A program made the position numbers and the translations under genes. DNA of 64,000 bases from Terebella lapidaria. Its lineage: Eukaryota; Annelida; Polychaeta; Terebellida; Terebellidae. Positions within the stretch are counted from its first letter, which is position 1. Each line of letters begins with the position of its first letter. The notes under the pieces are model-generated. The model searched no databases. It was given only the letters and a program-made list of their open reading frames with translations, and was not told the origin of the DNA. The DNA lies in the NCBI GenBank assembly GCA_949152475.1, contig OX424560.1, positions 6,944,001-7,008,000 on the forward strand, given 5' to 3'. Shown piece by piece: positions 3,263-39,729 of this stretch.

Positions 3263-4764
3263 AAAAAAACCACAAGGGGTACTAAACACCAACACACCCA
3301 AGCTACTTTTCTAGAAAAGAACATGTGGATTTCCGGTCTCCTGCCGATCTTGACATTCCCTGTTTTTACACGTGGCATCGGGTCTGCTACGTTAGCGTAG
3401 CCATCTGATCATGGCTAAGCTAACGAATGCAGGTAAATTAACCAAAATAGAATGTACAGAAAAGACACAAACGTTTACTTTTTATGATTTTATGTTCAAA
3501 TGAAATCATTGACAAATTGTGGCTATGAAAGTCAATCCGCTTTTTCTTGTGTAAAATGAACGTCACAAGTAACTGAAATATAAAACACAACTGTAACTGA
3601 AACATATAAAATCATTCATAACTGTTTGAATGTGACGAAAACAATAATTACTTTCTGAGATCACATTTATATACCTCCAGTAACTGCAGTAAGGTTGTAG
3701 AATCACACGGACATATATAGTGATATTCCAGTATACAGAGAATATTTCTAAATAATTTATATATATAATTAGTTATCTGTGAATCTTAATTATTCATGGC
3801 TGAACGCTCAACCACCAAACCAATTAACGACTGGTCGCATTACCGGTCGTAAACAATTCCACAAATAGCAGAAATTTTGCATGAAGGGACATTTTGCAGA
3901 ATACTGTTTGTATTTGAACAGAAGTTAGTCAACACTGGTAACTACCAAGAATAATCTTACATGATTTATAGATGGCCCGTCATTATTTGAAGTGTAATGG
4001 AAATCTGACTGTCTGAGTGTCTGTTTGTGACCGAAAGATCTTGAGTGTTTTAATACACTGGCATGCATACATACATGTATCATGTATGAGGAATAACTAT
4101 TATACAACACATTTTTAGGTACAAAGTTAACCCTTGTGATGGATTAAAGATATTTCTGTAAGATCATGATTTTTTTCTTGTTGTGAATGCATGTATAGAT
4201 CTGCAAAAGGTGGAGAAGTAAACACCGAGTATTGCAAGGGGATATATCATACATTTTATAGATATACTGTATCATAGGGAACGAAATGCATACGAAAGTC
4301 GGGCGTTGATTTAGTTTGCCAATCCAACAGAAACGAAAAAAAAAATTCCAGAACAAATCAAGAGATGGATTTTGATAATGCATCAAACTGTGATTACTAG
4401 ATTACCTTTATCGTTTTGACTGTTTGGAACAGAAAATAGTCCTCAGTTTTGATTCTGAGTAATCGTGATTAACTGAAAACAATGAAAACCTCATCCTGTC
4501 CTACTATTCATATGCATGTGATATGGCATTGAAATGCTTGTGGGTTAGTCCCGGAAATTTACGACATGTCATGTGTTATCATTATGACGCTGACATTCTC
4601 AGTTTCATTATTACGTTGACGATTTAAAACATGCAACAATAGCAATGTATGCACTTGCTTTTAAGGCGTCAATCGGCTAAATACTGTGTCTATTTTCTAC
4701 ATGTCACATTTCTACAGAGTGATTTCACATCCTCCACTTCTGCTGTACACGGTCAAGATCCAAA
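3263..4764. other. Intergenic between paralogues 1 and 2, no gene seen
   Basis: AT-rich sequence with no frame resembling a gene. It must contain the promoter of paralogue 2. No clear TATA box placed within 40 bases of a defensible start could be chosen. Confidence 0.4.
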
Positions 4765-5538
4765 ATGTTCCAACTGCAACACTGCGCTATCCTGACACTG
4801 ATCTTGGTTTGGAATCCCGTCTTGATGACTGCAGACCCTCTCCAGAAGAGGTCACTGCGGTGGGAAGAGCTCCCTCGCTACACGGTCAGATCTTCCAATC
4901 CAAACCAAGAGCCTGATCTCGTCGTTTCTCACCTCAAGTCACACGAGAGAAACGTGCCAATCCAGTCCAATCGTGTTTACATGGCCTTTGTCTTATATAA
5001 GCAAAACGGACGGGTGCTGGAGCCAGAAGGAGGAATCTTTCACTTCATAGGCGTTGAAACAGCTTTCTATATGATTGGAGATTGTCAACCCCCAACGAAT
5101 CACTCTGGCGCCTACAGATACTTCTACGGTCAATGTCCGAATGCAGATGACAAGCTGGTGGCTTCGGGATACTGCTTCAGTGGAAACCGCCTTGTGTACA
5201 ACTCGGCAACTTTCAACAACAAGCACATGTATACGGATGATAGATACTACTTGGACAATGACAGAATGGTTAACCGGATTGAACAAGCCTTGTTGAATTC
5301 CTGTTATAGCAAATGGAAGGACAGTGGATTTCAAACTGATGGTTGGGAATGTAATTTCGATGAGCTGTCTAATGCACAGTTCCAGGCGCTGATGGCATCC
5401 CTGGATGAGGGTGATCAATGTTGTGAGTGTTGCGACGGGCAGTGTCTGATTTCTAGTGGAATGCCATTCAGTCCGTGGTCCGCAATTTTTGGCTTTACAT
5501 TGGTGTTATTGTCTGTGTTGTTCAGGTACACCAATTGA
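4765..5538 (+). CDS. Secreted Cys-rich, probably GPI-anchored protein, paralogue 2
   Basis: A complete intronless frame of 257 aa. The signal peptide spans about residues 1-23, followed by a QKRSLRW processing region that matches paralogue 1 (KKRSLDW) and paralogue 3 (EKRSLRW). The conserved landmarks are all present: HLKSH, FVLYKQNG, EPEGGIFHF, NHSGAYRYFYGQCPN, LVASGYCF, LVYNSATFNN, YTDDRYY, IEQALLN, GWEC and QCCECCD. A hydrophobic tail ends the protein, as expected for a GPI signal. The NYT sequon of paralogues 1 and 3 reads RYT here. AATAAA lies at 5556-5561, 18 bases after the stop, so the 3' UTR could be very short. Same strand as paralogue 1, 2.9 kb away. Function unknown. Confidence 0.85.
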   Translation: MFQLQHCAILTLILVWNPVLMTADPLQKRSLRWEELPRYTVRSSNPNQEPDLVVSHLKSHERNVPIQSNRVYMAFVLYKQNGRVLEPEGGIFHFIGVETAFYMIGDCQPPTNHSGAYRYFYGQCPNADDKLVASGYCFSGNRLVYNSATFNNKHMYTDDRYYLDNDRMVNRIEQALLNSCYSKWKDSGFQTDGWECNFDELSNAQFQALMASLDEGDQCCECCDGQCLISSGMPFSPWSAIFGFTLVLLSVLFRYTN

Positions 5539-14611: not shown

Positions 14612-17600
14612 GTCAGTGTATCTTTTCAATGTTTTATTCAGCTGTTTTAATTTTTTGAATCGGAGTTGAAAACAGCAAGGCCAAGGTCATAGAAAAGGAC
14701 TTCCATGATTTTACTATGACCAATTCCCCATCATTTGCTATGTGAACAATGTTCGTACGACCAAAATTACCTATTATTGCCCAAGATCGAAAATGTGAGA
14801 GTCATCAACTGAAATCACCGATTTGGGATATTTCAAGTAGTTGTAGTTCCACAATACTTGTAAAACCACTGACGATGCCAGAACTAATATTGTATGAAGC
14901 ATACACATGTATGAAACATGACTTGCAAATTCAGAGAGGTCAGCATCAAAATTCAGGTCATGTTCGAGAATAAGGTATAACGCGAAAACTCATAACAACT
15001 GAAGTTTTGAACGCACGTCGTGTTTGCTTTGATCCAACAAAATGCAGACAGCAGTTCATATTTGAGCAAAATACTGCAAATCACACGGATAATTCCCTCC
15101 ATTGTAGAATACTATTCTTAACATATACTATATTCTTAACATATACTATTCTTAACCCTAAAGCCACTTCCTGTGGACCACGCAAGATCAAAACAACTTG
15201 CAACAATAATGAACTGATCCTCATCAAATCAGCATGGTTTGGCTTTACGAGGAACAACACGTGTGGTATCCCGTACCTGACCAGTCACCCTGGTGGCTGT
15301 AGGGATGACGTGGCAAATCCGGTGGAGAGGGTCTGTACAGGAAGACAGGACTGCCGGGACATGCCACCTCTAGAGAGTGAACAGTGTCAAACAAATGGCC
15401 TTGGCTTGTATTTGCAGGTCGACTATCAATGCTTCCCAGGTATAAAGATTAGGCACTCATTCATGATTACAATAGTTAACTATATATACACCCTTTTCGA
15501 TGACGTCACGAAATCACCTCGTTTTGGGTGCGCCGCCATGTTGGAGGACACCGACGCCAGCATGGCTGCCGCCAAAATTTCTGCTCCGGCGAGGTCTGCG
15601 TATTTTGAGTCGTTAAGCAAAGCAGATCAATCGTTCTACGAATCTAAACTGACTTCAATAGATGGTGTAGACCCATATTGTATGAAAAAGAGTGAATGTC
15701 AGTGCGAACCAGAGGCTTTTCCGGATGTGAGTTACGGCGACATCGTGAACTACCTGGTGTTATCGCCCACCCCCCTCTATACTGCCGACCAAATGAAAGC
15801 GTATAAGGGCTTGGAAAGCCACAACCAGTTCACCAGTGGTTGGGTCCGTGAGGTCATGGTGCATTGGCCAAAAGACAATGGCAACGTTGCTGTTATCATT
15901 GGAAAAGTAAGTTGAAGTTAAATCCCTAATAGAACTAATATGTGTACATCCATGTATTCACGTGACACAAAGCTATTAGTATTATAAAACAGTACTGTTG
16001 TGTTTAAGAGACAGCACGACTGGAGAAATTCACTGTCAGTCCTACCTCCTGTTCTACTTCAAAAATTCAAACTGAAATTTATTGAGCTCCCCTCAACGCA
16101 CAGGCATGAAACTCCGTAAAGTATCTCTATATGCCGTGTAAGATTATCATGATATAATTAAAAAAAATAAATAGATCTGTTATTATTCTCAAAATGTTGA
16201 ATTATTAACAATATCTTCAGGTACATCCTGCCTAAAAATTCACAAAGTATTGATTCTGAAAACATACTCACAATGTGAAATTGGAATCCTGCTGTAGCGC
16301 CCGAGTCTCAGATTATCCTAGGGCCCGGACGAGTTGAAGATTTCGGACGCGGGTACCCGTGTGGTTTGACCCTACCCGCCTGGATAACCCGTCCAAACAT
16401 AGATCAAAATTTGAATAGGATGGAGCAAATACGAGCAATTTGTAATGTCACGTAAGTGCTAGTCATCGATCTTTGACACATAACATATTTGTTTCGTCAG
16501 TGTTAAGTTTCAAGTTATGAGATCACATGATCTCCTGAAACGGCTTCCGATTTTTTCCGATGAATTTCTTGTCATTCTTGTGATTTTACTAGCGTTTATC
16601 GCAAATTTTCGATACTAAAACTATATCATTTTTTGTTCTCGGGTACCGGTAATTCGGGTACCCGTTGACTTGTCCGGGCCCTAGATTATCCATTGTTCAA
16701 CTGAGTGCTGCACATCTAAAGTGCAAAGTTGACACTATTGGTACTGTTGGTAAATTTGACAACAGTCCCCTAATTTGCACCTTCCCCCAACTGTGGCAGG
16801 ATACCCATTGTGCAGTGTGAGTAAATTTTTGGCATGAATATTTATCTGTGTCAAATTATATCATTATAATCTTCTACACAGCATATAGAAATATCTTGGG
16901 AAGTTTCAAGCATCTACAATGAGCGACTCTCAGAAATGTCAGATTTAAAATTTGAAGTAGACCACAACTCGCAGTGGAATTTTTCAGTCAGGCTGACATT
17001 TAACTGCATTCAGGTAATAATGTAATCATGGATCAAAGTATATATATAAGTAGAAAGTGTGTTTAAAATTAAACATCCCAAGTTTATTTGTATCTCTGGG
17101 CGATGAGTCGGAGATACTATTGTTTGGCCTTGTTTTGCAATGCGTCTGCATACTTAGGGGGTTTCTCATAATATACTACAGGTCACAATTTGGCTGAAAT
17201 CATTCCATAATTCTATGTAGGCATTTGTTAGGGGTAATTCTTAAAACCTGCTTAATTTCATAAGCGTCATACATCTTTTCACGATTTTATGATCAAATAT
17301 GGTAAAAAAAATATAAATGGATTTTGAGTGTTATTGTCTGCAGATAGGCAGATAAGGTATTAAACATTCACAGGCAGTCATATACAGAATTTGAATCTAT
17401 GACATTGATTTTGACCTTGGATCAAAGTCAACATGGTCAAATATTCTGCTTCAGTGTTTCTCCCAAATTTTGCTCTAATTGGTGTGTAATTTTGTAATAG
17501 CATTTAGTGGGGTTAGCTAATATTGTCATTTACAGATTTTGAAGTTTTGATGGGGTGCGAACATTTATTGAAGATTTTATGACAAACTATGGTGAGAAAT

Positions 17601-20600
17601 ATTTTAAAATGGCTGTGGAGTGTAATTGGTCAAAGATAGATTAGTATTTAACACTTACATGGAGCTATATTGGGGCTTCGAAAGGGTGAGCTTCATTGGA
17701 TGGAGGGGCTAAGGCGTTGCAGATAGAGTACATGTGTACTAGTATATTTTTTAGTACAAACATTTCCGTTCTTTCAGCAAATTGAACAATATAATGGATA
17801 CCATTTCATTGACTCTGAATATGTTCTGATATATCAATACTTGTTGCAGGTTCTGCATTCACAAAGCCTGAATGACACCCCAGCGAAAGGCTGGCTGATC
17901 GTACAGAAGGACGGCACGGTGGTGACGGCAAACTGTGATTGCAAGGCAGGGCAAAGTAGCACATGCACCCATATCTCCTCCATGCTGTTCTACATCGAAG
18001 CAGCAGTGCGAATCAGAGAGAACAAGACAGTCACACAGGAGAAAGCATACTGGTTGCTACCCCAAGGACTCAATAAACTGGAATACAAGCCTGTTTGTGA
18101 GATCGATTTTACCTCAGCTAAAACGAAGAAAAGCAAGCTTGACAGTATGATCTCATCAGATACAGTGCCAACTGATCCCAGCACACCAGAACCAAAACCA
18201 GTGAAGGCTCGTCGTACAGACGTATCTGACACTGATCTGGATGCCTTTCTGGAAAAGTTGAGTCTGACTGGGACTAGAAGTGCCATACTTAGCATCAGTG
18301 AGCCCCACAGTAACCAGTTCGTTCCAGTGCCCATGAAAACCCACATGCCTCAGCCCCTCACAGAACTCAAAGACGAGAAGTACCTGAGTATGAGCACAGA
18401 GGAACTTCTGGATACATGTGATAAGCTGGAGGTAGCTGTATCCCAAGAAGAGTCTGCAGCAGTGGAAGCCGAAACCAGAGCTCAAGCCAAATGTAAACTG
18501 TGGTTCCGTTACCGGGCTGGCCGCATCACTGCTTCAAGGATGAGAGCAGTATGCCACACAAAACTGGAACAACCGTCCAAGAGTCTTGTGAAGGCAATAT
18601 GTTACCCACAGGAAGTGGCTTTCACAAGCAGAGCAACAAACTGGGGATGTGACCACGAGAAGTTTGCTTTGTGTGATTTCAGTTCTCTTATGGAGAAAAA
18701 CCACAGTAATTTCAGCGTAGTTGAAAGTGGTCTGGTGATCAACCCGTCTTACCCGCACATTGGGGCTTCTCCCGATGGGGTCACACACTGTGATTGCTGT
18801 GGTTCTGGGCTGGTTGAGGTGAAGTGCCCTTACTGCATACGGGATGCGTCAGCAGAGGACCACCAGTGTCTGACTTCGGAGAAGAAACTCGACAGGAAAC
18901 ACAGCTATTTTTACCAGGTGCAAACACAGCTCTTCGTTTGCCAGAAAGAGTTCTGCGACTTAGTCATTTGGACAGAGAAGGGACTCCACTACGAGAGAGT
19001 GACACCCGATGATGTTTTCTGGAAGGACATCTTGAACACAGCCACATTGTTCTTCAGGAGAGTCATCCTGCCTGAGCTGGTCTGTAAACACACGACCGCT
19101 AAAGAGTTCAAGAGTCCTCGGCCGCTCGCAGAAAGAAATCCAAACCAGGACGCTTCTCAAGCTGCACGTCAAGCTGAAGATGCGACCGAACTTTGGTGTA
19201 AATGTCGAGATGTCTCTGCTGGGAGGATGATCGCTTGTGATGGCGAAAACTGTCCATATGTTTGGTTTCATTACAAATGTGTTGGAATCAAACGGAAACC
19301 ACGAGGAAAATGGTTTTGTTCAGAATGTAGGCAATAAATTGTCATGTCAACTGAGATTATTAGTTTGCAAAGTGTTCATGAAAAATTTAATTCATTTCAT
19401 TGTATGTAGGGCAATACACTTTGTTGAAAAATTGAGGAATACTGAGTATGTACACTTATTATTGAAATTTTTTCAACCCGATTGAATGCGAAACAGCTGA
19501 ATCAAGCCAATTGTTGTTTTGTGTGAATTCAGACACTGAAATAAATAACGTGTGCATTTGTATACATTAATGTGAGTTAGTGGCCAGTAGATTATTGATG
19601 TTTGCAGGACGTTTTGTTTACATTGGTGTACACTGTTGTTCAAACTCCTGTGTGATGAAATGTAAACATGTATCTCATGTATATAGCCTTGTATACATGT
19701 CCGATGGATTGCAAAAGTGTTCCATAGCAAAGAAAAGTAAACGGCATGTTTGCAGATACAGGGAAGGGGAAGGTAACTACTAAATCATGTTCATTACAAA
19801 TACATCAAAATCATGATTATGTTCTGAGTGCTGAATATGTTTTTTGTGAAATAAATGATCCAAGTCATGAGATACAGTAACATGTTGGGAGTTTATTTTT
19901 CACGATTAGGCACTGATTAATAGTAGTCAGAGCAATGACGCATGCAAATATAGCAGTAACACATTCGTATGATGTAGTATAGTACTAAAGTACTTTTATA
20001 ATAGGCCATTCACATTATGCACAAAAATTCACTTCAATTGAATGGAACAACAGAGGGTGACAAGTTTGTCAGTGAGCAAGCTACGTGGACCACTTTATCA
20101 ATTAATGTCATTTTGTCTTCGTCTGGAGACATCAAGTAGTCAATTGGGATAGGTCCATTCAAAATTTCATACCTCTGCCTTGCAACACCAATAACTCTTT
20201 CTACGTGGATCATGAAAGCTGGTATTTTTATCGTTGCACTCATCATACCCAGTGCATCTGCTAAATCGAACCCCTATCTGCAAGAACTACTTCACCTGGT
20301 AGGATATTATTCAAAAATCCACAGTTCTCGGTGAGATATTTATCACTAACTCTACCACCCCATGCCTTGGAAATGAAGCTTATCACACCTTGGGGGGTAA
20401 TTCCTATAAGAAACTTAATAGTATTATGGTGTTTGTACGAAGACCATGTTTGTGCACGAGCCATTAAATTTGATGGTCTGTCTATAAATACTTCAAAACA
20501 ATCTATTATACAAACAACCTTGCTTCCAAAATTCACTCTGAAACACATAGGCATTGTTTTAACCAGTTCTTCCCTTGAAGGCCACTTTACCAAACGTTTT

Positions 20601-23600
20601 AATTTATGATACAGCAATGTTACAATGTTAGAAAATATCTTGGAAGCTGTGGATGGAGAAATACAAAATCTATACCCGACATCTTTCAACGACAGATTGA
20701 GTCTCATCCGCATTAAACACAGAACAAGTTGTTGAAACTTTGACAAAGCACTCTTAGATGTCACAGTGATGTCAACACTCACAAAATTAAAAACTGTCAT
20801 CAAAACCTTGAAACTAGGGAGGCCAGTATAGAATTTAACATGGGATTCATCACTGCCAAAGAACTTCTCATTGAGTTGACGACTATCAATCTTTTCCTTC
20901 AGGGTGATGTTTTGCTGTGTCAGTCTGTTCAGCTCCTGCTCCATTTGGGAAATGTAGCTGCATGTCATCTCAGTCTGTGTACTTGTGGTAATGCTGCTGG
21001 TAGCTGCGGGTTCGGTGACCACCTCATGATCCACCAGGTTTTCCTCATGCAATGTGGAAATAATGATTTACAACCATGAAATCTCAAAAAGAAATAATTC
21101 CACAACAATTACCTTTATTACATGAAGTACTTTCAATACTATTAATAATAATTAATAATAATTTATTTTCTATAGCGTAAATCCACAGAGTGCTCTAAAA
21201 CGCTTTATGTGATGACATAGGATATTATGATTACATGGGATAGTATGATTAGACATTAAAATATTCATTGAACAAGTGTGCCTTGATTTGAGACTTGAAA
21301 AGTTCTAAATTGGGAGCAGTTCTTATACTGTGGGGAAGACTATTCCAGAGGCGTGGCCCTGCAAAACTGAAGGCACAGGTCTGAACAGCTGATGACCTTG
21401 TGAAGGGGATTTGGAGCAAGGACTGGTCACCGGAACGTAGTCCTCTAGCTGGCTCATATCTGTGGAGGAGTTCATGAAGGTACACCGGGGACTGATTGTT
21501 CACTGTCTTGTACACCAGAGTGAGGATCTTGAATTTGACCCTCTGCTCGACTGGCAGCCAGTGGAGGGATTTGAGCACCGGTGTAATGTGGTCCCTCCTC
21601 CCAGTTCCCGTGATCAGCCTTGCTGCAACATTCTGGACACGTTGTAACTTGTTAATCAGCACAGAAGGAGCCCCGCACAGGAGAGAGTTACAGTAGTCCA
21701 GCTTCGTTGTAATGAACGCATGGACTATGCGTTCAAGTGATGGACGGTCCAGGTTCCTCTTGATCTTGAAAATGTTGTGAACATGGGCATAGGCAGATTG
21801 ACAGACAGCTTGCACGTGCGCCTGCATGGACGTTGTGGAGTCCATCACGACACCAATGTTTCGAGCGCGGGAAGATGGAGCAACATGATGATCACCGATG
21901 TGGATGGACGGAGGTACTCTGGTGTGTGCAGATGACTTGGAAGAGATCATGAGAAACTCAGTCTTGTCACTGTTCATCTTTAGTTGGTGTTCTATCATCC
22001 ACTGTTGTACAGATGCAATACATTTCTCGATTTCGACAACAGCACAGTCAATTTCCTTGGGCTTGCATGTAAACCAGATCTGGGTGTCGTCTGCGTACAG
22101 GTGGTAACTTGTGTTTAGCTGTCGTAGGAGCTGTCCTAGAGATGCCGTGTAGATAGTAAAGAGGACCGGTCCTAAGACCGATCCCTGAGGCACCCCACAG
22201 TCCAAGGACATGGGATCAGACCTTGCCCCTTGGATTTGGATAGTCTGTTGGCGACTTTCCAGGTAGGACACGAACCACTGCAGCATGGTGCCGCCGATAC
22301 CAAGATGCTGAAGTGTGCTGGCAAGGAGCTGATGACTGACCGTGTCAAAAGCGGCCGATAAGTCCAAAAGGATGAATAGAACTACTTTCTGCTGGGCCAC
22401 AGCACACACAATGTCATTCCGGACACGGACAAGTGCAGTCTCGGTACTATGTCCCTGTCTGTATGCGGACTGGCAAGGTTCGAGTAGGTTGTGATCCTCC
22501 AGGTATGTGCTGAGTTGTGAGACTACAACCTTTTCAAGGACCTTGGAGACAAATGCCAAATTTGATACTGGGCGGAAATACTTCAGTATGTTGACATCGA
22601 GCGATGGTTTTTTTAACAGTGGTGTGACAAGTGCTTCCTTGTAACATGAAGGGAACACGCCACTCAGAAGAGATGCATTGACAATTGCTGTGATCACTGG
22701 TCCCACTTGATCCAGGACTGACTTCACCATTGACGTCGGCATCGGATCGAGGTCACAGGTCTTGCTTGCCATCGATGTTACTGTTTTTGTAAGTGAGCCC
22801 GTCGTGATTGCTTCAAAACTTGATATTATACTTGTGGATGGTAGGGATATAAGATCTTCTGTGCCTGACTGTCGTTGGATGGTATTTCTGATGTTGACGA
22901 CTTTCTCCACGAAGAACTCCCCGAACAGTGTACATAGTTCCAGTGGAGACTTGTTTGCTGGGAGGTCTTGGGTCTTCTTTTTGCCCAGCAGAGTGTTGAC
23001 CACGGAAAACAAGCGTTTGGTGTCGCCCTGATTCTCATCAATGACAGCCTTGTAGTGCGCCTGTTTTGCAAGGTCAATGAGTCTGTTCACTATGTCCCTT
23101 TTGGCCATATACATCTCTCTATGGACGGTAAGACCTGTCTTTCGCCAGAGCCTCTCGACCTGTCTCCGATGCTGTTTTGCTTCCCGTATGTTGCTGTCGT
23201 ACCAATCAGCCTCAGGTCTGACTGTGATGTTCTTGGTTTTGAGTGGTGCTAGAGTGTCAATTACTTTCCTCAGTTCTGTGTCGTACAGTAGTGTGAGTTC
23301 ATCCAAAGACAGATCTGACAAGTTGGATGAACACAAAGCAGAATTCTCAATCGCTGACGTCAGCATTTCACCCGTGATGGCCTTGTACCTCCTGTAGGAG
23401 ACTTGGCGTGTTGGGTGTGGAGGTTTCTGCAGGGTCAGATGAGTAAACACTGGGAAATGGTCGGGAAAACCATGGTCGGCAGGACTTGTGTCCAGTACAA
23501 GCATGTCGTGCGACCTGCTAAGCACTAAGTCCAGCGTGTGACCAAGTCTGTGGGTGCTGTTGTTGACGTGCTGTGTCAGGCCGTAGTAGCCGATGAGATC

Positions 23601-26600
23601 AACAAAAGCAGCTGCTTCTTTGTTTCCGAGGTCGTTCACATGGTAATTGAAGTCCCCGACAATCAGCAGCTTTCCCGCTATTCCAGCTATTCCAATTTGC
23701 TTATTGGAGCTTTTACTGTAAAACTACTAATTTTGATGGACGATTTGGCAAAATCGCCAAATTAAATTGTCCGCCAAATTAACTAGATATATGTTAAGAA
23801 ATATATGTGGCTTTGAAACTGCAAATTAAATCTCCGCCAAATAACGTGGTGCTCACAACCGCCAAATTTAATAGCCACCAAAATCAGTCTTTTTACAGTA
23901 CATCATGATCAAACATTCATTAGTAGGATTAGTTGCCCTGTATAAATGATCAACTACATGCTTGAAATTTACCTGACACTGTGCCCCTGGTACAGTGACC
24001 TTCCTGTTGGCGCGACGCTGGTACCTCTCCACAGATCGTCCTACGCCTTTGACCCCGTCATGTCCTAAGCATAGAGATGGTGCCCAATCTGGATGGGTGT
24101 TGTCATACAGAGACGATGGCTTCCCTGTGTCATACAATTATTATTTACTGTAGAAGAGGTTATGCATAGATGAACCAACGGTATTATAGCATTGTAACAT
24201 GATTAAATATCCACCATTATTTATCCTGAATGGGATAGGTAATATCTGACATTAATTTCTTTTCAGAGTTGATGATTTAGAATACTATATATGTATAAAT
24301 ATACTGTAGTATAGTACGTAAATATTACAATGACAATACATATCTTATAAATACAGATATTTCAAATGCTAATGTTATTGGATTGACTTGGAAATTTTGA
24401 TTGCGAATAGCCTATATATTCGAATATTACTCACATCAAACAACTGTATGTGACAGCCTCAGACAGTGTCCATTCAGAACTTGTGAACATTTAGCTAACA
24501 ACAAACATTTTAAACAAACATATAAACCATATCTTGAAATTTGTTTGAAAATGTAGAAATGATTTGATTGAAAATGTACAACATGTCGAAAATGTAAAAC
24601 AACATTATACTAGTATCTCACTTATGGAAGTAAATATTAACACTTGACAATAACTCTAGCAACAAAATTAATTAATGTCAATACACACCTGTTACGAAGT
24701 GATCCGAACAAATGCGGAGGAATGGCAGCGAAGATGGTTTCAGATCAGCCCTCGCGAGCCGTCTCAACCATGTCTCCCGCCTCTCCTTCGACAGCTCCTC
24801 TGTCTGTGTTCCCTGATAAATAAAAACAAGATTTCATATAAACAAATCATCAAAATATGCACACTTTCATAGCATTTATTTATTTTCTTTATTTATTTTA
24901 CCACATTTATTATACATAGTTTTCAAACAAAGTTCACTCAAAAACAAACTTGATTTTATCGTTATTGATATTGATTGTTACCATTCTCTTGTATTACTAC
25001 AGCGTATACATCTACTGTATCTCCCAAAACAATGAGAACAGCCACATGTATATTATATCAAGTATCAAATATGCTGGTGAAGGGCAGGGTGTTGACTGAA
25101 GCAGATTACCTTAGATTACTTGTACATATAATTTAGGACAATTTTGAAGGGTACCAAAAAGCGGCTCGATGTACAATAACGTGGGCAATGACATAGGCTG
25201 TGATTAGTTCAAAACTGGTCACGATGTAAATAGATTGTAGATATTTGACCAGGTATCACTCAATCCTATATGTCCTACCCGAAAGGAGCCTGAGCCCGGG
25301 CGGAACAAGGTAACTAACCTGGTTGGTGATGATTGCTGGAATTCGGTAAAACGACTTCTTGTCTCTGTCGCCCCTATTCCCGCAACCAATAACAGCACAA
25401 AAATTAACCATCGCGGTCAGCGTGTGGTACGAAACGCAAACTAAACAGTCAGAATCAGTGCCAACGAGCTGTCAAGTCTCTTTGACAAGTGTGACTTTGC
25501 CCTTGAATCGCTCACTTCCTTTTCCACTGACACTGGGGAGAAACATGTCCGCGACTTCGTTCGTGAATACGTACGGTGTGTCACAGTAATTCCATATTTC
25601 GCATTCACTTAGATCCATTAATTCTTTTTTAAAAACTCATTTCCATCCATTTCAATGATAAATACATGTGACAATCTTGTTTTTTTCGTCAATAGTTCAA
25701 TGAGCAAAAAGGCTTTTCACCGTTCATCAAGAAAAAACCCACGGACATGTTCCTCTCCAATGTAGGCATGGCGGGAAAAGCCGGGAATCTCCGCAGGTGT
25801 CCTCCAAGATGGCGGCGACGTAATTCGTGACGTCATACAAAAACACTGTATACTGCATCGTGCGAAGTTATCCCACTTTCACCGGTTGAGTGTTTGTTTA
25901 AAGTAGTTGCAATACTGTACACGCATAAAACCTAATTGTTTATCAATAAATGGCGTTTGTACAATATCATTGAGATCTGCTGGCGAAGACATGTACGATC
26001 AGGACAGAAACTGGGGCAGAGTTGTTGGTGGCTCCTGGAAGGCGGTGCCGGGGAACTCAAGGTCCAATCACTGTGAAGGCGAGGGATGGGCAGCAAGTCA
26101 AGCTTGACATGCTAGATCTCTACTCAAGAGACCGTTATCCAGCCAAACGTGAGAAGTATTTCACAGTGCGTGAGGAGGGACGGCAGGACGATATTTTCGG
26201 CAGTTCAGCACGCGAGACGGAAGTGTATAAATCTGAAACCAACCGGATGCACATCATACTGACAGAGTCTGACGACATCAAATTCATTCTCAAGATAAAG
26301 GGTGAGACATCTTTCATGCTCTGACCAGCGTTACAGTTCATTCCATCAAAATTAATTCAACCTGATTTGCATGAGTGACACGTCAGTTTTCGTAAATTTA
26401 TACAATTTTATGGATGCCATACCATATATTTTTCTGTTTTGTTCATATTTGTGGCGATTGTCACGAGTTATTCCTGAACCCTAATGATGATTAAATTTTC
26501 TAGAACATTGTGGTAAAAAACGCGCAAACTCCTGCTCGTTTAGATAGTTTATTCCAAAAAAACAACAAGTATGTTCGTAGGCATAATAAATATAGGTAAA

Positions 26601-31920: not shown

Positions 31921-33344
31921 GTAGTGTAGCATGACAAACGCGACATGTGAGAAAATCGAACACCATGTATGTCGTGTTTCTCACGGTCGAATGCTTATTA
32001 TCGCCCATGTCGCATTTTTCACGCCTGATGTGATTGGTGGATAATATTTTATTCTAATCTGCTTGCAATATCCACATCATGGATTATTTGGCTTCTAAAT
32101 ACGTTCCAATTTAATCATTGTTGCAATAGGAAATGTAAACAGACACACTTGATGTCAATTTGTGTGTTTTGCCAATGGAATGCTTTGAACTCGTAGGCCT
32201 ACTACCGTATACGTATCTTCTCACTCATGATCACCATTTGCACGACTTAAATGGAACGCAGCACATAACGCACCCAACATCGTTCGATGTATTGGTCATA
32301 TATCGCACCATAACCCTCCCCCCCCCCCCCTCCCTGTTGTGCCAGATCGTCCACTACCACTCGATTTCAGCGCTGTGTCCTGATTCAATATTGCGTTGTC
32401 CATGAATTGGACGATAATATGGTATTCCATATTGGCCCTGAACAAAAGGGTTGATTTGAACTCATAGGTTTGATTTTACATCTTTACTTCTGTTCTCTGG
32501 TTACACAAGTGGTTACTGGCGGTGGCCCGGCGTCTGGCGGTGACCAGACGCATGGTCTTCGCTGTAGACAACCGAATCCCTTTTCACATTGGCACTAAGT
32601 AAATGGGTTGATCTTACATTTCAGTTTAGCGGATCTTTGATCCGATGGCCCATTGCCGTGGCGTTCCGTCTGTCGTCCGTCAGTATCGGAGGCGTCCGTC
32701 TACATTTTCATCTCAAAATTTTATTTTGAATCCCTGTGAGGTTTTTTTCAAGAGGGAGTTGAAACTTGGCCTTTGGCCTTAATTTCGAGGTTTGAGCACA
32801 TAATGGCTCATAGCTGGCCTTTTGTCGACTTTGCATTTTGGGAACCAGTTGCACACATATGACGGGGGGGGGGGGATATGCTCCGTGTTCTCATGACTTT
32901 GAGCTTGACCCTTGGCCTACTTTTTTAAATCAGGGCGAATGGTGGCTAGTATCTCACTTGTTATCGATATTTCAGCTTGAGAGTCGATTGTGGTCGTATG
33001 GGGATGGTGTATGCTGAATATCTTTGTGACATTGGGTTTGACCAGTGATAATATTCTCAAGGCCACGGGACAAAAGGGCTAATATTAAAAACATAAAACC
33101 TTTATTGTCCGGTAACCTTCCTCAGCCTCTCGGCTGATTTTTTTTAATCGTGTACCCACATAAATATACGTATATATATCATATATAATACGCACTATCG
33201 TACACCTTCTGCTTATGCAAGCTTCATATTCTGGAGGTGTGAGGTGGTTAGTGGTGGTCCTTATAGGTTCCTGGTAGCGTTTGAATCATACAGATCCATA
33301 TCCACATCATACATTCTTCCAATTTAGTGTTCATCTTATAAGGT
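31921..33344. repeat. Left part of a hairpin-motif repeat and old dispersed repeats
   Basis: At 31930-32020 there are several CATGTCG...TTTTTCACG motifs, also clustered at 37036-37250 beyond the LINE. A CATAGTAGTGTAGCATGACA end here mirrors ACTACTGCTGCATGATAAAA at about 37258 reversed, so one element may have been split by the LINE. Poly-C occurs at 32319-32331. Bases 32640-33100 look like an old dispersed repeat (CGTCCGTC and ttggcctttggcc words). Confidence 0.45.
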
Positions 33345-36300
33345 GTGTGGTATATGTTACAGGTGCATACAACAAATGCCATACACACTAACCGTACATA
33401 CACATCTAACAGAGCCCAGCCAAGCCCTCTCGTGCCAAATATCTATCGCCAATTGCGATTATCATATTGCCACATGAGCGATCTAATCATCCCACAACCC
33501 ATGTTAGTAAATGATGATAGGTTTCTGAACTTGGACACACAATATTTTGAAGTTGAAGACATAGTCTCACACACCTCGCCCAACAAATCCAAATATTGCA
33601 CTCTTCATCTGAATATTCACAGTTTACCAAAGAAGATAAATGAACTTAAAATCATGCTTTCGAACTTACAAAACACTGGGATAGTTGTGCACTTTATTCT
33701 GTTATGCGAAACCTTTCTGAACGACAATACATTGCATTTATGCAACATACCTGGATATAACCTTGAATGCCGTAACAGACAGGGTGGGACCCGGGGAGGG
33801 GGTGTCGCGCTGTACATACATGATTCGCTACATTACGATATTAGGAACGACCTGGCCATAAATGTTGATTGCGAATTTGAGTCGATTTTCATCGAGGTAA
33901 AACATAGTCAGCGAAACACAATTGTGGGTGAAATATACCGAATCCCAGGCACAAACGAAACACTATCAATATCTAGATACGAAACAGTACTTGAAAAGTT
34001 AAACGGAACTAATTCTGACGTTATACTTGGTACAGATCAAAATTTTGATTATATCAAAATACACTCCAACAAGCACTCCGATGAATTACTTAACACCTTC
34101 ATATCATCTGGCTTCCTACCGACCGTTAATAAACCAACCAGAATAACACATAATAGTGCGACTTTAATCGATAATATATACGTAAAGTGTTCTAACTACA
34201 ATAATGTTAAATCTGGCATAATACTAAGCGATATATCTGATCATTTGCCCTTGTTTGCTGTTATGGGGGATACTTCGTCCAGCAAGGTACAGTCCCTAAC
34301 TATAACTTGTCGTCCTCTCACTTCTGAAAATATGATGTCTATATGTAATGATCTCAATTCAACAGACTGGACATACCTCGACCGAATTCCCATCAATGAC
34401 GCTTACGCATCCTTCACAAACAAAGTAAAACAGGCTATGGACAAATTCGCTCCTGAAATAGAGAAAACAATCCCACAAAAACGTGTAATAAAAGAACCCT
34501 GGATGACACAAGGGTTGTTACAGTCATCATCCAAATGTATCAAACTTTATAAAAAGTGCCTACGTAAATCAAAAACAGATAGTTCTTACCAAAAATATAT
34601 TAAGCATAGGAACTTATTCAGAGTTTTGAAAAGACAATGCAAACGCGAATACTATGGGTCTCTTCTTGATAAATACAGATGTGATGTGAAAAAAACGTGG
34701 AAAATTTTGAACAATGTTATAGGGCGAACAAATGACAAATCATCAATCACCGACACCTTTCTTATCAATAATAAACCTGAGACTGATCCAACCAAAATCG
34801 CTGACGGGTTCTGCAAATATTTCTCAAACATAGGCGTTTCGCTGGCAGAACAAATTCCATCAGCCCCTAAACATTTCACTGAATATCTAAGTGAACAACC
34901 GAACCCAAACTCTATATTCATCAACCCCACTGATCCCAACGAGGTCATGAAAATGATAGACTCATTGAAAGGAAAAAAAAGTTCAGGAGTTGACAATTTG
35001 AGTAGTCACTTCATAAAACAGATAAAACATGCAGTTTGCACCCCGATATCATTACTAATAAACAAATCAATTTCAACGGGAATTGTCCCTCAGCAAATGA
35101 AAACGGCGAAAGTAATCCCAATCTACAAAAATAAAAACAAGCAAATGCTGAATAACTATAGGCCAATATCACTATTACCCTGTTGCTCTAAACTCTTAGA
35201 AAAAATCATCCACTCACGACTGTATACGTTTCTCGTACAACATAATATACTCTATCCTAAGCAATACGGATTTAGGCCCAAACATTCAACTATTAATGCA
35301 GTTACAGAATTTGTATTCGATACCCTGACTGGCTTTAACAATAACATGTACACACTTGGAGTTTTCCTGGACCTCTCCAAGGCTTTCGATACTATTGACC
35401 ATTCTATTCTGTTGTCCAAATTAGAATATTATGGTATTCGAGGGATTGCCTTGGAGTGGTTCAGGAGCTACCTAAATAACCGTGAGCAGTATGTCAAGTT
35501 CAAAAACTCATGTTCGAACCTCTATCCTATAAAATACGGTGTACCACAGGGTTCAGTATTGGGTCCGTTACTTTTTATCATATATTCAAACGATATTCCC
35601 AACTCAATAACAAAATCAAAATGTATTTTATTCGCAGACGATACAACGTTGTATTATACTCACAATAACCTCCAACACCTATATCACATTGTTGAATCAG
35701 ATATCCTCCTCATGGTTAATTGGTTCCGGAGCAACAAATTATCACTGAATGTTAGCAAAACTAATATAATCTTATTCTCCAAGAAGCTGGTACACAACTA
35801 CAACACCCATTCGCTAAAAGTCGATACAGAATACATTACACCATCACTTTCTGTTAAATTTCTTGGTATCCATATAGACAGTAAGCTGAGTTGGAATGTC
35901 CACATTGAACACGTCTTGAAAAAATTGTCCAGCGCCCTATATATGTTAAACACTGTCAAAAACATGTTAAGTAAAGCCCACCTCAAATCGTTATATTTTA
36001 GTCTGTTTCATTCCTACCTAAACTATGGTATATTGTTATGGGGTTCTGCACAAAAAACGATACTGCGCCCGCTTGAAATCAAGCAAAATAAAGCAATCCG
36101 ATGCGTCACTGGATCACGTTTTAATGCCAGCTCTACGCCACTCTATCATAAAACAGGCATAGCTAAGCTACATGATTTGTTCAATATTGAACTTAGTAAA
36201 TTTATGTATCTTCATTCCCGCAATGAACTACCAAGTTCGCTGAACAATCTTTTTGTGGCAAACAATTCTATTCACTCCTTCAACACTAGACATTGTAAAG

Positions 36301-37035
36301 ACCCCCATATAACTAGGTGGAATGTCCAAATTTTTGGAAACAGCTTCATTCGTAAAGGTCCGGAATTATGGCTAAATACACCAACCCATATAAAAAACAG
36401 CATTTCAGTCAGTGTCTACAAATCTAAGATAAAACAACACTTCATTTCGAAATATTTGATGAATAACTAACTATCTAATCTAGTAATACTCCCTTGATAC
36501 TGTAAAATTTCATGGCTGCATTGTATTTCATAAGTTCACGTTACTACGGTCGCTTTATTAGTTTGTCTTTTTTGTGTCTTGTGTCACTTTTTCATATTAT
36601 CATTATTATTTATTTTTTTTTTTTTTGCTCTACCAATCCTGTATCTTTTGTCAATAGTGTAAGGATGTGTGTGGGTGTGGGTGTGGGTGTGTGGGTCTGG
36701 CACAACTGTATCATCATCTCCCGTGTATATGGGTGTATGTGAATAATGTGAATAGTATGTATTTCTACGTGAAATTAATGTATATATATATCTACTTGTT
36801 TGTGATGTTGTTATATGTAGTATGCAACTCATACGTGAGTCCAACTTGTAAATATTTTGTTCCTATCCGTTCCATATTTTGTGTTACTATTATTTCAATG
36901 TAATGGGCTTCACCGCTTGAGCAATCAAGTTACAGGCGTCGGCCTCTGGTGGAGTCCACAAATTGTGCATTTCTTATATCATCTATTGAATATGTTCATC
37001 TTGTGTGCAATTTGGAAATAAATTACTTACTTATG
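33110..37035 (+). mobile_element. Non-LTR retrotransposon (LINE), full endonuclease-RT frame
   Basis: The ORF from ATG 33474 to 36470 (998 aa) is uninterrupted. The apurinic-type endonuclease shows LHLNIHS, LLCETFL, GGGVALYI, YRIPGT, ILGTDQNFD and SDISDHLPL. The RT shows NYRPISLL, FGFRPKHST-like [35 protein letters not shown] and FADDTT, then the usual C-terminal LNYGILLWG region. A jockey/CR1-like superfamily is likely; exact clade unsure. The 3' UTR (36471 to about 37035) has a T-run, a GTGTGGGTGT microsatellite and a GAAATAAATTACTTACTT end. No ORF1 is seen upstream, so it is 5'-truncated or belongs to a one-ORF group. The upstream boundary is approximate. Same strand as its neighbours. Confidence 0.85.
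36471..37035 (+). repeat. LINE 3' UTR with microsatellite
   Basis: A T-run at 36610-36626 and a GTGTGGGTGT array at 36666-36700. The end GAAATAAATTACTTACTT resembles a short 3' tail repeat. Nothing coding. Confidence 0.55.
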
Positions 37036-38545: not shown

Positions 38546-38883
38546 TGGAAATTTACATGAGGTAATTCTATGATTCAGCACCAGCCAAGTGCTCTGTAAA
38601 GTGATAAAAAACCGTGTTGCTTTTATCGTGACTCAGCAATTCTAATTCGAGAAACTCAGGGTGACTTCAGTGCTAGGGGACGGCTCCCTCACCGATTGTT
38701 TGCCACTCCTCCGCGGGAGAAGTATGTGTTTGTCACATAGCGATATATAGTAAGTGGAGCATTTTCTTTGCCTTAGTCACGTGCAAGCACGCTGCTAGTT
38801 TCCATGCATTAAAATTTCTCTTACAAATAACATTGTGAGATTAGAGTTTGAATAACGTCGGCTTTATATGAGAAGAAATCAGG

Positions 38884-39729
38884 ATGTTCCAGTCGTTGTA
38901 CCTAGCTTTGTTGCCGCTGATCTTGTTGCCGAACATTGTCTCGTCAAACGCCGGAAATCTCGAGAAAAGATCGCTAAGATGGATCGACAACTACACGATC
39001 AAATCATCCGACCGTACAAAACCTGATATCGAGGTTGACCACCTTAAATCTCATGAAAGAAATGTGCGTTTAATTCACCCCGATCAGACCTATATATCAT
39101 TTGTTCTATATAAAAGAAACGGAATCGTGGTGGAACCAAACGGAGGAATATTTCACTTCATAGAACTCGAAACGGCAATGAACAAAAAATCAGGATGTAA
39201 TCCCGAAACAAGTCACGCTGGCGCATACAGATCCTTCTATGGTAAATGTCCGAATGATGAACGCAACCTGGTGGCTTCTGGATACTGTTATGCAGGAAAA
39301 AATGGTCTTGTGTACAATTCGGGGACTTTTAACACAAGGACACCGTATGCAGGCCCTAGCTACTACCTAGAGGACATATACATCGACGATAACATGAAAA
39401 ACCGTAGCGTACACGCGATAGAACAAGCCTTGCTGGATTCCTGCTACATAGAATGGAAAAAGGACGGATTCCAGACCGGTTGGCTGTGTAGAGTCGGCGA
39501 AATGTCTGTGACAAATTCTCTGGATCTGATGTCATTCTCGGACACGGACGAGCAATGCTGCGAGTGCTGTGACGACCAGTGCTCGACCTCTAAGCACTCT
39601 AATGGGCTTTCCCTTGGTGTACTGCCCGGGAGGCCGAGCTCGACCTCTAATGGGATTCTCCTGGGTCCATGGCTCGGGACACTGAGCTCCACAATGATGT
39701 TCTTGCTTGTGTTGTGTGTTTGTAAATAG
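38884..39729 (+). CDS. Secreted Cys-rich, probably GPI-anchored protein, paralogue 3 (longer C-terminus)
   Basis: A complete intronless frame of 281 aa, the third family member. Signal peptide about 1-22, then EKRSLRW. The core landmarks are kept: HLKSHERNVR, FVLYKRNG, EPNGGIFHF, GAYRSFYGKCPN, LVASGYCY, LVYNSGTFN, IEQALLDSCY and QCCECCD. It differs in an insertion between the YYxxD region and IEQALL (EDIYIDDNMK), and in a doubled C-terminal spacer, where STSKHSNGLSLG is followed by STSNGILLGPW, the latter being the paralogue 1 form. A hydrophobic GPI-type tail ends the protein. The initial CAGGATG context matches paralogue 1. Function unknown. Confidence 0.85.
   Translation: MFQSLYLALLPLILLPNIVSSNAGNLEKRSLRWIDNYTIKSSDRTKPDIEVDHLKSHERNVRLIHPDQTYISFVLYKRNGIVVEPNGGIFHFIELETAMNKKSGCNPETSHAGAYRSFYGKCPNDERNLVASGYCYAGKNGLVYNSGTFNTRTPYAGPSYYLEDIYIDDNMKNRSVHAIEQALLDSCYIEWKKDGFQTGWLCRVGEMSVTNSLDLMSFSDTDEQCCECCDDQCSTSKHSNGLSLGVLPGRPSSTSNGILLGPWLGTLSSTMMFLLVLCVCK

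Follow-up and report, generated by a model that had tools for sequence, protein, structure and literature searches.

Within a 64,000-nucleotide stretch of the genome of the annelid Terebella lapidaria (GenBank assembly GCA_949152475.1, contig OX424560.1, positions 6,944,001 to 7,008,000; hereafter the window), positions 15488-25849 hold two facing genes, a YqaJ-type nuclease on the plus strand and a THAP-DDE transposase on the minus strand, enclosed by terminal inverted repeats (TIRs). Judging from its sequence features, we read this unit, with a probability of about 0.93, as a copy of a two-gene cut-and-paste DNA transposon of the ISL2EU type (PHIS superfamily). An earlier note on this DNA had proposed such an element, with convergent genes between matching ends, at 15489..25848; the TIRs, their recurrence and the gene pair were all found, and the limits were refined to those given here. 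An inverted-repeat search returned two complementary pairs of arms, an inner pair of 22 nucleotides (15531-15552 and 25796-25817, 95% complementary) and an outer pair of 19 nucleotides (15494-15512 and 25824-25842, 89% complementary), so that the TIR regions span 15488..15552 on the left and 25796..25849 on the right. The inner pair is confined to the ends of the element: at up to 3 mismatches its 22-mer has only two sites in the window, both of them in the TIRs, with 0.00 expected. A 14-mer of the outer arms occurs exactly in both TIRs and, at up to 2 mismatches, has 3 matches in the window against 0.95 expected; because 5 of 100 shuffles also reach 3 matches, this word is weak evidence by itself.

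Comparison of the flanks of different copies identified a 2-bp target-site duplication, AT, at 15486..15487 and 25850..25851. Across five families in the genome (described below), AT flanks are present at 20 of 21 copy-ends, with the register chosen to fit AT. The duplication of the window copy can be read equally well as TA, and the TA or TATA duplication suggested earlier thus survives as a 2-bp duplication, TA being a one-base shift of the same event. Some features of the ends speak against the ISL2EU assignment. For the A|AT|T context of ISL2EU, a by-eye count over the 20 AT-flanked copy-ends finds A ahead of AT at only 7. In addition, the window TIR starts with AC (CA in the TA register) and the families of this genome start with AC, AG, TC or GC, none with GG, though GG is given as only the ‘usual’ start in the part of Han 2015 (PMC4482050) available to us.

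The nuclease gene consists of two predicted exons, at 15538..15906 (splice model and homologue alignment) and 17850..19337. The first ATG of exon 1 lies inside the TIR, and a second in-frame ATG follows at 15562. Under the predicted splicing the two exons join in frame to give an open reading frame (ORF) of 618 amino acids that is uninterrupted, in line with the intact nuclease-type protein reported earlier. Pfam searches matched YqaJ (1.7e-20), viral alkaline exonuclease and a PHD finger; the latter is of the ING type and C-terminal (residues 567-618), and exon 2 also carries a SWIM motif (CxC...CxH) in addition to the YqaJ domain. A further exon at 16883-17013 (131 nucleotides) was considered by eye and rejected, as it would break the frame. 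A viral source for the nuclease was likewise dropped: a single scan of viral contigs yielded 165 pattern-matching stretches, none of them a relative by tblastn, a result that implies no absence elsewhere. The nuclease intron contains a small element of its own (16319..16683), whose inverted ends are 17 nucleotides long (TAGGGCCCGG) and whose duplication, GATTATCC, is 8 bp; by eye, it resembles a hAT-like miniature inverted-repeat transposable element.

The transposase gene runs in the opposite direction from four exons. Exon 1 (25319..25411, the start of the THAP domain), exon 2 (approximately 24687..24812, THAP) and exon 3 (approximately 24000..24134, the end of THAP) were placed by tblastn, the last also by its Pfam THAP match, and exon 4 (20037..21067) was identified by Pfam as carrying HTH_Tnp_4 and DDE_Tnp_4. 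The matches (DDE_Tnp_4 1.6e-28, HTH_Tnp_4 1.2e-16, THAP 9.3e-11) bear out the earlier call of a THAP-DDE transposase as far as its domains are concerned; the gene itself is broken by a 1-nucleotide frameshift near 20270 and by a deletion of 18-21 codons in the DDE exon, codons that exist in a second copy of the element and in relatives. The window copy therefore does not have the two intact ORFs that would indicate potential activity and, from its sequence, it is a recently inserted element that is now non-autonomous. Intron 3 of the transposase is occupied by a non-LTR retrotransposon, a long interspersed nuclear element (LINE; approximately 21131..23687, minus strand) that encodes a reverse transcriptase and is apparently truncated at its 5' end. 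Since the second copy lacks this 2.6-kb insert, the LINE probably arrived later, and the full length of 10.4 kb overstates the element, which measures about 7.8 kb without it.

To what extent does this element recur? A search of the 761.6-Mb genome with the TIR pattern returned 4 exact matches, which are both ends of two copies, while a reversed control returned 0; in addition, the left 300 bases match 2 places, at 100% and 99%. At the second locus (copy 2; C4, L037) similarity to the window reaches both ends and stops outside them, and an AT duplication is present there too. The same ends with the same gene pair thus recur, which was the check that the earlier note had proposed. Both genes of copy 2 are broken. 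We also observed that about 0.8 kb is tandemly duplicated within its transposase region.

A genome search with nuclease exon 2 gave 86 matches (433 candidates scored), and families were defined from 14 loci around the strongest of these, besides copy 2, so that sampling was by way of the nuclease. At 13 of the 14 loci a transposase lies downstream of the nuclease on the opposite strand (3 of these 13 have an extra weak plus-strand match, E 0.001). The 14th, L047 (2551-7017), is shorter, keeping the nuclease and lacking the 2.8-kb transposase-bearing stretch of the L048 family. By this arrangement the nuclease is a gene of the element itself, as the earlier description of it as transposon cargo had claimed, being placed between TIRs in both copies and in a convergent pair at 13 of the 14 further loci. 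The nuclease could instead be an ordinary host gene that a transposon merely happens to surround, and its intact ORF and the host-protein labels of its relatives, such as ING3-like, would suit such a gene; we give this almost no credence, however, because the same nuclease lies between the same ends at the second locus and because the convergent pair is found at 13 of the 14 others.

The window element and L037 form family F1, and four further ISL2EU-like families, F2-F5, have the same convergent pair. F2 comprises L047 and L048, F4 comprises L049-L051, and F5, the sister of F1, comprises L038 and L039 (52-61% to the window protein). F3 has seven copies (L040-L046) that are 98.3-99.99% identical over aligned stretches; in L041, the only F3 copy read for frames, the nuclease main exon (459 codons) and the transposase exon (386 codons) are both open. 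Pfam identified YqaJ and full DDE and HTH domains in L041 and in F2, and YqaJ with a full THAP-HTH-DDE transposase in F4. From these features, F3 has likely been active recently and should suit experiments better than the window copy does.

In order to examine selection on the two genes, substitutions separating the window copy from copy 2 were polarised with F5 as the outgroup, counting stops as nonsynonymous (N) and leaving out unpolarised changes (nuclease 9N:10S, transposase 3N:3S; S, synonymous). On the window lineage the nuclease has 4N:8S (P 0.005 against a neutral fraction of 0.725), whereas on the copy 2 lineage its 12N:4S looks neutral; the difference between the two, on small counts, has a one-sided Fisher probability of 0.034. 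For transposase exon 4 the counts are 2N:4S on the window lineage and 8N:3S on the copy 2 lineage. The nuclease result, together with the transposase frameshift, could suggest that the host has domesticated the window nuclease, keeping it intact while the transposase decays. We consider this very unlikely and dropped it, since transposase exon 4 looks constrained on the same lineage, so that the constraint is probably older than the insertion, although the counts are small, and since nuclease families whose main exons are open exist in multiple copies in the genome. Instead, the substitution patterns suggest that both genes were probably constrained before the window copy inserted, which speaks in favour of a need for both; the small number of transposase substitutions weighs against this conclusion.

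Beyond this genome, 7992 candidate nuclease homologues were scored, of which 180 passed the threshold and 120 were listed; counts of relatives refer to these 120, and most of them are nameless. The named ones come from animals (echinoderms, molluscs, a hemichordate, amphioxus, ticks, a scorpion, a beetle and fish). By pattern, 77 of the 120 have a PHD finger and, at four positions that we take to form an H3K4me3 cage (H3K4me3, histone H3 trimethylated at lysine 4), 62 of the 77 retain this putative cage. The spacing of the SWIM motif is found in 71 of the 120, and many of the others end before the motif. One relative, P0074 (952 amino acids), has an additional Ulp1-type peptidase domain (PF02902). 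As a test of linkage outside the genome, we compared contig sizes between the nuclease and transposase match lists (117 nuclease and 112 transposase rows gave a size; the 3 and 8 that did not were left out), finding 7 sizes in common against 17 matches over 20 control offsets; one of the 7 is that of a 4,857-base Saccoglossus contig. Genes of this kind do carry host-gene names, as had been anticipated, with nuclease relatives labelled ‘ING3-like protein’ and ‘Inhibitor of growth protein 1’ and a transposase relative labelled ‘DNA repair protein RAD52 homolog’.

The two-gene ISL2EU design is already published, and the window element adds a member to a known kind. In the passages of Han 2015 (PMC4482050) available to us, ISL2EU families are reported from animals only and combine a THAP-HTH-DDE transposase ORF with a YqaJ ORF, the function of the extra ORF being unknown, and with an AT duplication, all as in the window; their average length is about 4.84 kb, differing from the 10.4 kb, or about 7.8 kb without the LINE, seen here. 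The teleost study, as far as its text was available (PMC9179366), describes the same pair of ORFs, states that no proof of ISL2EU activity had been reported and did not detect ISL2EU in amphioxus. Neither PHD nor SWIM is mentioned in the main text of Han 2015 or of PMC12730594; the available text of PMC9179366 has no SWIM and a single ‘PhD’ without the domain sense, and the Han 2015 passages yielded neither gene order nor promoter motifs. A PHD reader and promoter words at fixed positions are thus absent from the ISL2EU papers searched, and literature listings in an open-access library brought up no further paper on the subject, with the proviso that both may be described elsewhere. The ‘unusual transposition system’ of the earlier note is not new in kind.

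We next consider the ends, which contain words that we take to be CRE (cAMP response element), ETS and NRF1 sites. The YY1 motif used is that given in the part of PMC7481187 available to us. In the window, the CRE-type word TGACGTCA lies at nucleotide 14 of the element (15501-15508), with a YY1-type word CGCCATGTT at nucleotide 47; at the right end TGACGTCA lies at nucleotide 15 and a YY1-type word CGCCATCTT at nucleotide 36. Among the ends of the five families, TGACGTCA starts at nucleotide 14 (left ends of F1 and F5) or 15 (right ends of F1, F5 and F2 and the left end of F3) at 6 of 10, and was not found at nucleotides 14-15 at the other 4 (F2 left, F3 right and both F4 ends). In the sister families F1 and F5 a YY1 site follows TGACGTCA at fixed places. 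Here, the CRE is shared at 8 of 8 positions at both ends and YY1 at 8 of 9 and 9 of 9, whereas of the 43 remaining positions at each end only 27 and 24 are shared. In L039, the other F5 copy, the left end carries a mutated CRE and lacks an AT flank. Across the terminal 150 bases of the eight ends of F1-F4 there are 12 CRE, YY1, ETS or NRF1 matches, with at least one at 6 of the 8 ends, as compared to 6 matches in the 53.5 kb of the window outside the element, 3 in 33.4 kb of element interior and a mean of 0.034 per 150 bases in 551 overlapping CpG-rich background segments. In its first form the test gave 11 matches against a shuffle mean of 0.14, and 0 of 2000 shuffles reached 11. We also predicted, before fetching the F5 right end, that TGACGTCA would start at nucleotides 14-16 and YY1 at about 35-50, and found them at 15 and 36. 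In several related elements the ends therefore resemble host promoter switches, placed at set positions, from which a promoter function may be inferred. Alternatively, TGACGTCA may be a binding site for the transposase or its partner that resembles a host site incidentally; its fixed distance from the terminus (nucleotides 14-15 at 6 of 10 family-ends) is what such a site would have, the differing YY1, ETS or NRF1 words close by or at the opposite end are not, and we hold this to be quite possible, if somewhat under even odds. The two roles are compatible rather than exclusive.

These features suggest a mechanism, which we offer tentatively, with the odds clearly against its being right in full. 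The transposase would bind the ends and cut and join at AT/TA, and its lambda-exonuclease-type partner would be held on H3K4me3 chromatin through the ING-type PHD finger. The TIRs would double as promoters with CRE, YY1, ETS or NRF1 sites, so that an element, once expressed, would acquire H3K4me3 at its own ends and attract the partner complex there. The nuclease might then trim or resect the broken DNA that excision leaves at the donor site, a role that we think rather unlikely.

A number of observations weigh against this chromatin-tether and promoter-end mechanism. The window PHD finger scores marginally in Pfam (PF23011, 28.2 against a cut-off of 27; PF00628, 20.9 against 24), those of F2 and F3 fall under both cut-offs, and the SWIM motif is a by-eye reading rather than a Pfam hit. 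Among the listed relatives 43 of 120 have no PHD by pattern; 33 of these stop within 70 amino acids past the nuclease core or lack a core landmark, and 10 do not. F4 has SWIM, YqaJ and the convergent pair without a PHD finger and without any of the four motifs in the terminal 150 bases of either end, so neither PHD nor end motifs can be obligatory. The motif words were picked after the first ends had been seen, making the enrichment figures post hoc, and the F5 prediction is not independent, because F1 and F5 are sisters. The nuclease may have another role, such as repair of the excision break alone, with the PHD as a dispensable accessory; while F4 fits such a role, the cage kept in 62 of the 77 PHD-bearing relatives and the PHD present in the recent family F3 do not, and we take it to be possible at well below even odds.

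The PHD finger of RAG2 guides V(D)J recombination, and the proposed mechanism resembles the RAG system in design, not membership, as judged by sequence. RAG-like transposons have convergent DDE and partner genes, the RAG2 PHD finger binds methylated H3K4, and a PHD is present in all invertebrate RAG2-like proteins except that of amphioxus, according to the part of PMC7204232 available. Similarly, the TIRs of ProtoRAG are bidirectional promoters bound by YY1 at GCCATCTTG (PMC7481187, in part), a word that also occurs in the window right TIR. YY1 is reported to be repressive in ProtoRAG, which counts against our mechanism, yet mutation of the motif lowers transcription there; a YY1 site need not, therefore, mean activation. 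The differences are substantial: the window transposase matches DDE_Tnp_4 and THAP and is not RAG1-like; there is no kelch family among the window Pfam hits to E 1, YqaJ and PHD being found instead; the duplication is 2 bp rather than 5 bp; and the cysteine pattern of the PHD differs, the RAG2-like partner having no nuclease domain. The right end also shows a stretch resembling a RAG recombination signal, CACTGT beside ACAAAAAC; the left end lacks a counterpart, and the resemblance was taken as chance. A PHD finger is also found in Rehavkus, a DNA transposon that is an outgroup of the Mutator-like elements (PMC6446971, in part), but there it lies inside the transposase and in another superfamily. 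It is conceivable, if doubtful, that ISL2EU independently evolved a RAG2-like strategy, with an H3K4me3-reading partner, promoter ends bound by host factors, transposition limited to copies that are transcribed and a lambda-type exonuclease to deal with the donor break. In that case the ends would carry a bZIP/CRE site at a set distance of 14-15 nucleotides from the cut, backed by YY1 or ETS sites.

Elsewhere in the window, a second non-LTR retrotransposon (33342-36470), possibly recent, has a 1042-codon open frame with a reverse transcriptase. Three similar, apparently secreted, cysteine-rich proteins (1023-1826, 4723-5538 and 38872-39729) form a local gene family, and none of the three has a Pfam match.

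Since inhibitor-of-growth and RAD52-like labels are already attached to some such genes in public records, they may misdirect work on chromatin readers in invertebrates and fish. For ISL2EU itself, an ING-type PHD finger on the nuclease, combined with promoter-like ends, offers a direct and cheap way into the role of the nuclease and, if the proposed strategy is true, it would be an independent parallel to RAG2.

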